From the NCBI GenBank assembly GCA_024760905.1, contig CM045731.1, positions 20,269,501-20,333,500 on the forward strand: a stretch of DNA of 64,000 bases, given 5' to 3'. Of the stretch, positions 10,801 through 13,800 are shown piece after piece. Source of the stretch: Plotosus lineatus. Taxonomy: Eukaryota > Chordata > Actinopteri > Siluriformes > Plotosidae. The notes beneath the pieces were generated by a model, which saw only the letters and a list, made by a program, of their open reading frames with translations, was not told the DNA's origin and made no database searches. Position 1 is the first letter of the stretch; the number at the start of each line of letters is the position of its first letter. A program made the position numbers and the translations under genes.

Positions 10801-13800
10801 TCCCACTATTTTGCAGTTTGAACCAGACAATGAGCCTAATGTACATGTTTTTGGACTGTGGGGAAAAACCTAAAGTGCTGGGAGAACATGCAAACTTCAC
10901 ACAGAAATGCCCGAGCATTTCAAGAATGTGGTAACCACTAGGCCACTGTGCTGCCCATCAACGCATCCTACAGTGAACCCTGACACTGAGATGTAGCTCT
11001 ATCAGCAGCTTCTTGAGGATCCTCCTCCTAATTTGTGGCCCTAAGAAATTGCCTGGTGTGTGTGTGTGTGTGTGTGTGCTTGAATATGTGAATTTTTTTG
11101 TGTAGTATATTATCACGGATAAATTATTGCATTACAATCAAGGCATTTGGCAGACGCTTCTATCCACCCTTATCTTTTATTTGTTGTTGCTTTTAATAAC
11201 TGTGCAATTGAGAGATAACAACCTCGGTTCAGGGCCCAGCAGTGGAAAATTGGTGATATTGGGATTTGAACCCCACCTTCAGATCATCAACCCAGAGCCT
11301 TAACCCCTGATCTGCCACTGTTCTTAGTTCATAGAACCATAGTTCATGGTAGCTATCTATGACTCATAGGAAGTTAAATAAAATATTTATTTTCCTTAAA
11401 CCGGTACATCACTTCATTCACTCTGTAATCTAAATCGGGGGTCACCAACAAGGTCAACATGAGGTGCCAGTTGGCCTGTGTACTGCTATTTTTCGACCAG
11501 GCCTGTGGCTCCTGAGTGCCATTTTCCATTGAGCTGCATCGAATATTTTTTGCTACTTTTTTAATCAAATCAATGTCTTCATATAGATGAATATCATTAA
11601 TTATTAATAATGACATATAATTAAAGGTAAATTGAACAAATGTATTATCTCAGAAGTGAGTATCGACCTGGTAGCCCTTTGAATTAATTGGTACCCAAGA
11701 AGTAGCTCTCAGTTTTTAAAAGGTTGGCGAGCCCTGATCTAAATAGATGTGTGTAAGTTTCACATCTTCTTCTGCTGCATCTCTGTCAGTGACCACAAAC
11801 TTCAACTTCGTACATGACACTCTTGTGACAGTTGTATGTGAGTGGGTGCATATATGTGTGTGTGGGTGTGGGGTGGGTGGGTGTGGGTGTTGGGTTAGTG
11901 TGGGTTGGTGGTGTATCATTTTACATGAAGTTAATATAATCAATATAAATATATACATTAAAGACCTGAACTGACCAACAGTATTGTGTTTGCATACATT
12001 TCCCAAATGCAGCTATTCAGGACAGAACTGGGGTCGCAGTCCATCCCTTATACTCCGAGATCATCCTGTATTTAAAAATAAAATGCTGCGTCCTGTGTTG
12101 AACCAATAAGAGACATGATAGATCAGTATTAAAGTAACATCAACCCGACATGCGCAGTGGAGAAGTTGAATTTCTGTAAAGAAATAAATTCTGCTCGCTG
12201 TGTGAAAATTACACATCATGTGACCTCAGTATCAGTGATCATCTCATACAGTAATAAGTATCAGCCGCATCCTTAGTTCCTGATGTGAATGATGTCTGTA
12301 GGTCAGTGTAATGTGAGATGATGTGGAGATACAGGGGAGATACTGTTGAGTTTTTCTCCGTCACACACTGAGGAATATCTGACCTTAAACACAGCGCTGC
12401 AGTCACTCAAACAACAGCATTCCTTCATTCTGTAATGTTGGGCTTCATATTGTATTCAGTAGATTGTGAGTTTTTGTATGTTTGTTTCTGTAGGTTGTGT
12501 TCTCTCAGGTCATCCTCCATCAGAAATCACAGGACGCAGAGGTGGTTCAGCGCTGTTACCCTGCACCTGCTCCGACCCCAACGCCAAACCTCAGACATTC
12601 ACCTGGGAGATCTCCAGACCAGGACATTTTACAGATGTGTTAAATGATACACAGTTCCGCGGCAGAGTTCAACAGTTTAATATCAATTCTCCTGCTAATC
12701 TGTCTCTGCTCATATCTGACCTGAGAGAAGAGGATGCCAGAAACTTCAGGTGCAACACCGAGAACGATCACAGAGACATCAAGCTTTATATTAAAGGTAA
12801 ATAATTTAAATACAAATTAAATATTGATATTCAGACATTAGGGAGGTGGAGAGGATCACAGGTTCACCTCACAGTAAGGTCGAGCATTCTATGAGGGTGT
12901 ATCCGCATGGCAATGGTCCCCAACCATTTTATCACCGCGGACTGGGGTGGGGAGCATAGATTGTGTATATTTTTATAATATACGTCGCAGCTTCCTCATT
13001 ACGTTGCGTCAACAACGTACCATAAGTATAAGATCCAAATGTCTGGTAACACTCTCGATTCCCCCCAAAAAAAAAAAATAAATAAATAATGTATTTCACG
13101 AGGAAAAACAAATAAATTCCACATTATTTTATGCATTTTCTAAATATACCTACACAGCTTTTTAATATTACTAAACACTCCATGAATGTTATTTTTCAAC
13201 AGTTGAAATAAAGTTGTCAGTTTGAACCGTCAGATAAGTCTTCTGCATGTTTCCGTAACTGCTGAGTCTCACAAGCTCCTCCGCCTCCTCTATATTCCTC
13301 CCTTTATCTCACGAGCCACCCCCACCCCCCCAACCTCCCTCTGTTGGCGATCACTCCCCGAACACACTTGGTCTCTGGTCGCTATGGTAACGTTTTAACA
13401 TGCCTTCAAAATAAGATACAGATACACCACAAAAATGAAAATAATATTCATGAAAATTTTAACTCACCACAGAGTGAAATCAATGGGAGGCCTGGGCTTG
13501 TTTCCCTGCAACGAGACAAGTCCATCAGGGGGGTAATGGGAGGCAATGACACCCAAAGTGTGTTGCTTATTTCCCGCCTACTAAGTTGTTTTGTTTTGTT
13601 TTGGTTGCTGTCACTGCAGAAAATACGGTTTCACACAGATAGGATGTCAGAAATGGCGACCTTGGTGGATCCTGCCATGACTTTAATCCAGAACACCGAC
13701 ACAGTTGTTGTCTCAAACATACGTTCAAGGCTGCCATCTTTTGCAATCTCCAGCAGTTGATTTTCTTCTTGCACTGATAGATTTGAAAATTTGTTGAAAC

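Follow-up and report, generated by a model that had tools for sequence, protein, structure and literature searches.

The 64,000-nucleotide stretch of the Plotosus lineatus genome analyzed here (hereafter the window; contig CM045731.1, C4:20269501-20333500) lies in a tandem cluster of putative receptor genes, each with two V-type immunoglobulin (Ig) domain exons, D1 and D2. An earlier note on this DNA observed that the D1 exons of two of these genes, B and C, have diverged while the adjoining intron has not, and it is this contrast that we followed up. The window and its surroundings, 210 kb in all, were assembled and searched with two domain queries, and gene models were based on homology and splice signals. 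D1-type exons were located in genes Z, A, B, C, D and E and in a fragment, P, and D2-type exons in the same six genes, at a D2-only place, Y, and in broken form at window position 38471. Inside the window lie genes B and C and gene A from D2 onward. When the gene B D1 exon was used as a DNA query against the genome, it matched seven places, all within C4 20.236-20.379 Mb. The genes compared below are A-E, five close relatives represented by five copies on one haplotype. Each has a leader exon 3.7-7.3 kb 5' of D1. After the two Ig exons come a Pro/Ser/Thr-rich linker exon of 87 bp and a transmembrane segment, and the tail carries motifs resembling the immunoreceptor tyrosine-based inhibitory motif (ITIM).

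The near-identity of intron 1 next to D1 was confirmed, with 1 mismatch in 492 positions between genes B (12001-12492) and C (58595-59086). The earlier note had put the D1 exons of the two genes at about 25 differences in 300 positions plus a 3-bp indel; the indel is present, and the count is lower, 21 mismatches in 300 aligned bases, of which the Nei-Gojobori method assigns 19 to replacement and 2 to silent differences. The contrast between the D1 exons and the intron flank is nevertheless pronounced (Fisher p = 1.3e-8). Divergence had also been described as beginning at the acceptor site and falling again after the donor. The first D1 difference lies 18 bases into the exon, and the drop beyond the donor is true for only ~40 bp: the first mismatch occurs about 40 bases on, and homology is lost shortly beyond. 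Nor is the 5' flank uniformly conserved, as genes B and C differ at 7-20 positions per 100 columns in 11056-11640, and the near-identical tract extends from ~11690 to 12510, with 6 mismatches and one 1-bp gap. The contrast is real and more general than the pair in which it was noticed, since exon divergence exceeded intron divergence in 10 of 10 pairs among A-E. The final 200 columns of the intron 1 alignment hold no differences in six pairs and one in each of the four pairs with gene D, whereas the D1 exon differs at 11-22 positions in each of the same pairs. Beyond ~740 bp 5' of D1, the introns of A, B and C differ by 4-22% per 200-column window, out to ~1.5 kb, and genes D and E carry insertions in distal intron 1. 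The possibility that the flanks are a product of assembly collapse or false duplication appears very remote, because the contrast recurs in five separately placed genes that differ in their insertions, distal introns and tails.

Analysis of the D1 substitutions among A-E revealed 37 variable sites with 38 changes, 35 of them replacement and 3 silent. The neutral expectation is 71-76% replacement (kappa 4 to 1), and the excess is significant over this range (p = 0.0013 to 0.011). Strong diversifying selection on D1 was the first alternative of the earlier note, and it is supported by the codon-model check run across the five genes, in which a ratio of nonsynonymous to synonymous rates (dN/dS, omega) of 1 was rejected by likelihood ratio test for D1 (p = 0.0009) and for D1 and D2 combined (p = 0.00016), kappa under omega = 1 being chosen from a five-value grid. 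Pairwise omega ranges from 2.1 to 6.9 and is infinite in one pair, with p < 0.05 in 3 of 10 pairs. For genes B and C alone, dN > dS falls short of significance (p = 0.089), and the signal requires all five genes. Silent D1 sites (3/71) are indistinguishable from the proximal intron (7/372; p = 0.21), a count that omits 3 columns at the 5' edge of the intron tract, adjoining a large insertion in gene D. With these columns included the intron stands at 10/375, which again does not differ from D1 silent sites (p = 0.44) and differs strongly from replacement sites (p = 2.3e-8). As silent D1 sites and the intron show no distinguishable difference, the excess is located at replacement sites, which are variable 7.0 times as often in D1, 2.9 times in D2 and ~10 times in the leader as the pooled silent and intron reference (16/733). 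Furthermore, replacement changes outnumber silent ones by a larger factor within A-E (35:3) than among the fixed differences from the outgroup gene Z (33:20; p = 0.0009). One result weighs against diversifying selection: dN/dS between A-E and Z is only 0.62-0.80, so the excess would be recent, or the same positions have been reused repeatedly.

The leader and the two Ig exons were the only ones found to diverge more than the neighboring introns. The effect is weaker in D2, where the codon model for D2 alone did not reach significance against omega = 1 (p = 0.067); the linker, transmembrane and ITIM exons show none. In the 300 bp 3' of D2 there are 3 variable sites among A-E, none of them in the linker exon (0/87). 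The transmembrane core, with 5-7 differences in 84 positions, is not clearly different from the preceding 150 bp (8-14 of 123-142). Within a tail type there are 0-3 differences over the 90 positions of the ITIM exon, compared with 2-21 in the 240 bp before it, and in the A-C pair the exon resembles the preceding intron (1/90 versus 2/241). As side observations, the contrast recurs on the 3' side of D2 (window 14086-14700 in gene B, and correspondingly in A, C, D and E), the D2 exon itself carrying 18 changes, 15 replacement and 3 silent, and the 48-base coding stretch of the leader (7806-7854, 53034-53082, and in A, D and E) carries 8 replacement and 0 silent changes over few sites, an excess that is unexpected in a signal peptide.

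The earlier note had further raised homogenization of the introns, and two observations support this and point to gene conversion. The longest identical runs, 249-417 bp, exceeded the permuted expectation in 9 of 9 tests (p <= 0.0045; three pairs on a longer region and six on a shorter one, gene D omitted, sites treated as exchangeable). In addition, the tail region splits A and C from B, D and E with full support, so that B and C have the proximal intron almost exactly in common and unrelated tails, indicating that sequence moved between genes of different ancestry. Purifying selection on the proximal intron and silent sites, through a regulatory element or non-coding RNA, with ordinary divergence of the exon, would also account for a D1-adjacent block that is almost invariant in A-E. 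We consider this improbable, although the block may have a function confined to A-E: intron 1 of Z aligns to that of A-E only across ~the last 60 bp, silent sites diverge freely to Z, and part of the block differs by 3-4% in fragment P and in a stray copy and by 26% beside Y. At C4:20366915 and ~20381700, pieces of the block are found that lack an intact D1: those next to fragment P are 96-97% identical, and the stray copy, 3.4 kb 3' of the gene E D1, is 96% identical.

The second source of exon divergence raised earlier was exchange from a wider pool, with whole D1 exons or long pieces imported from older Ig exons while introns are homogenized. Three features of D1 point in this direction: 11 of the 15 informative site pairs are incompatible with a single tree, gene C carries a patch in which 6 of 9 bases depart from the commonest codons, and minor residues occur at the same column in relatives from other species in 22 of 34 cases (16.7 expected, p = 0.035). 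However, dS among A-E is 0-0.03, compared with 0.38-0.45 to Z, and this low silent divergence favors selection over exons brought in whole from an older pool. No donor was found in the 210 kb, the genome-wide scope being that of the gene B D1 DNA query. We therefore find the idea of exons drawn whole from such a pool unsupported and its likelihood slight. The conflicting sites possibly reflect exchange of short pieces, or selection that has favored the same states more than once. The D1 tree rejected neither an A+C grouping (p = 0.25) nor a B+D+E grouping (p = 0.23), and discordance between the D1 tree and the tail split was dropped as nonsignificant (p = 0.25).

A closer competitor is selection acting only against homogenization, whereby the D1 differences predate the identity of the flanks and are protected from conversion, which continues to remove neutral differences around them. 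A precedent is found in the red/green opsins, where a divergence peak at exon 5 between homogenized introns is explained by selection under gene conversion (PMC3924837, in part). In the corresponding model of Teshima and Innan (same source, in part), as here, duplicates are homogenized in the introns and divergence peaks on the selected exon; A-E show both features, with converted flanks and divergence that peaks within the selected exon alone. The converted appearance of the flank tracts and the conflicting site patterns in D1 would likewise suit this alternative. In the opsins two amino-acid changes separate the two genes, whereas the five genes here have many replacements scattered over an Ig domain, with no clear rise in silent divergence. 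Linked silent differences would be expected in variants that are old and protected, and the D1 silent count is not significantly above the intron, although power is low at 71 sites. Such protection is possible, with the odds against its being the whole explanation, and it may act together with diversifying selection on D1.

To place the variable positions on the domain, an AlphaFold model of D1 was built from a 37-sequence alignment (mean pLDDT, the predicted local distance difference test score, 92.6). Foldseek matched the model to V-set domains in general (sodium-channel beta subunits, sialoadhesin, JAML, CD4, pIgR and myelin P0), and the closest solved structures by profile were pIgR and JAML. 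The 31 variable positions appear concentrated on one face of the predicted fold: the BC-C-C'-C'D and F-FG-G blocks contain 21 in 50 positions and the B, D and E strands 4 in 37 (p = 0.0017), with 6 in 14 in the N-terminal stretch, the blocks having been defined after inspection of the data. The positions that vary among A-E are also more variable in 35 relatives (entropy, p = 7e-5), which would fit both recurrent diversification and relaxed constraint.

We consider the most probable explanation, with good though not full confidence, to be diversifying selection on D1 in receptor genes whose flanks are homogenized by conversion. The cluster would encode germline receptors composed of a leader, two V-type Ig domains, a linker, a transmembrane segment and an ITIM-like tail. 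As seen in the sequence pattern, conversion between genes has homogenized the D1-proximal few hundred bp of intron 1 and a stretch of ~300 bp on the 3' side of D2 that takes in the linker exon. Diversifying selection would fix or keep amino-acid differences in D1 and, more weakly, in D2 and perhaps the leader. The likely reason is recognition by D1 of a ligand that varies, with contacts made by the GFCC' face and by loops resembling complementarity-determining regions, so that copies becoming identical at the recognition face would be disfavored. D1 would then contact a ligand or pathogen, and the ITIM-like tails suggest an inhibitory signal.

The ITIM has the form V/I/L/S-x-Y-x-x-V/I/L. A tail motif of this form is present in all five genes, as VTYSDV in B, D and E and VTYSAV in A and C, and we take VTYSDV and TEYACI in the gene B tail to resemble an ITIM and an immunoreceptor tyrosine-based switch motif (ITSM). 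Two tail types were observed (window 1974-2069, 24264-24377 and 63179-63274), with two tyrosine motifs in B, D and E and one followed by an early stop in A and C. A protein search returned 367 matches at E <= 0.001, of which the best 120 are from catfishes, characins and a few cyprinids and loaches and bear automatic names, e.g. junctional adhesion molecule-like, polymeric immunoglobulin receptor-like and neogenin-like. The best among these 120 are catfish proteins with up to 62% identity and up to 99-100% query coverage, spanning the leader, D1, D2 and linker. With a grass carp relative as query, the best 120 of 659 matches include zebrafish LOC556440 and a pIgR-like protein. These JAML-like and pIgR-like otophysan proteins share the leader, two V-type domains, four cysteines and linker and, in some, a similar tail; the D1 cysteines C2, C24, C26 and C87 are invariant in the 37-sequence alignment, including B and C. 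Judged by these matches, the family is one of otophysan two-V-domain receptors, known by automatic names only and little described. Our literature search, with subscription literature mostly outside it, found no paper on this cluster or on selection in the JAML-/pIgR-like family, and we do not claim absence in print.

Other teleost multigene Ig-receptor families include DICP, NITR and SITR, of which DICP and NITR mark natural killer (NK)-like cells (PMC5340972, in part). The DICP name is on none of the best 120 matches in either of the two protein searches. SITR have two Ig domains but, as far as described in part of PMC3031540, are soluble, without a transmembrane segment, and have a single cysteine pair in the N-proximal domain; assignment to SITR was rejected on the transmembrane and tail exons and the four D1 cysteines. 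Strand C of the CD300 V domain has a WC motif, together with a second cysteine pair (PMC3031540, in part). A CD300/pIgR-type V domain was rejected for D1, which lacks the WC motif, W38 being followed by E, and has extra cysteines C2 and C26.

The pattern resembles an arms race of a type described before for other receptors and for toxins. The process itself is already known, also from opsins, in a family here that is little described. KIR have inhibitory tails, and their Ig domain type and organization are unlike those of this cluster. The likeness to mammalian KIR lies in a recent tandem Ig-receptor cluster diversified by recombination and point mutation (PMC7516082, in part). Tentatively, and as a less likely reading, the cluster could be an undescribed fish counterpart of KIR, in which conversion in short tracts shuffles a small repertoire of D1 surface states between genes and haplotype-specific D1 combinations face a polymorphic ligand, the rest of the gene remaining alike. 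In the viperid three-finger toxin genes, too, introns are similar and exons divergent among tandem paralogues, under accelerated segment switch in exons to alter targeting (ASSET; PMC2474615, in part); in the toxins, unrelated segments take the place of exon segments, whereas single replacements dominate here. A single genome can reveal which domain and face of a little-described fish receptor family is under diversifying pressure, and the tandem array offers a natural experiment in selection resisting gene conversion. If alleles confirm the pattern, D1 would be a handle for ligand discovery.

Table 1 Features of genes A, B and C, in window coordinates
Feature	Position	Strand	Basis
Gene A D2 exon (gene A D1 is 5' of window)	465..779	+	
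Gene A transmembrane segment	1432..1515	+	
Gene A tail exon, VTYSAV motif	1974..2069	+	
Gene B leader exon (signal peptide, phase-1 donor)	7806..7854	+	motif scan, conservation in A-E
Gene B intron 1, 3' part, near-identical to gene C; D1-adjacent part near-identical in A-E	11690..12493	+	alignments, run-length permutation
Gene B D1 exon, V-type Ig domain	12494..12796	+	Pfam V-set E 3.8e-9, splice edges
Gene B D1 codons, residues 82-84, before strand F (site of the gene C patch, 59327-59335)	12736..12744	+	alignment
Gene B D2 exon, second V-type Ig domain	14086..14400	+	domain search, splice edges
Gene B linker exon, Pro/Ser/Thr-rich, inside near-identical 300-bp block	14510..14596	+	alignment in A-E
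Gene B transmembrane segment	18392..18475	+	
Gene B first cytoplasmic exon (part matched)	19348..19398	+	
Gene B tail exon, VTYSDV and TEYACI motifs	24264..24377	+	
Gene C leader exon	53034..53082	+	
Gene C D1 exon	59088..59387	+	
Gene C D2 exon	61408..61722	+	
Gene C linker exon	61832..61918	+	
Gene C transmembrane segment	62609..62692	+	
Gene C first cytoplasmic exon (part matched)	62871..62930	+	
Gene C tail exon, VTYSAV motif, ending TQYKP and stop	63179..63274	+	

Two other placements of the leader were rejected, one within the conserved intron block, which has no suitable frame, and one at ~ -1.8 to -1.45 kb in gene A, where an open frame is absent. The broken D2-type exon (window 38471-38751) has a stop and frame breaks and no adjacent D1. 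Retroelement remnants (Pfam RVT_1, Exo_endo_phos) lie within and between the genes, at window 20021-21505, 54114-55640 and 46618-47397.
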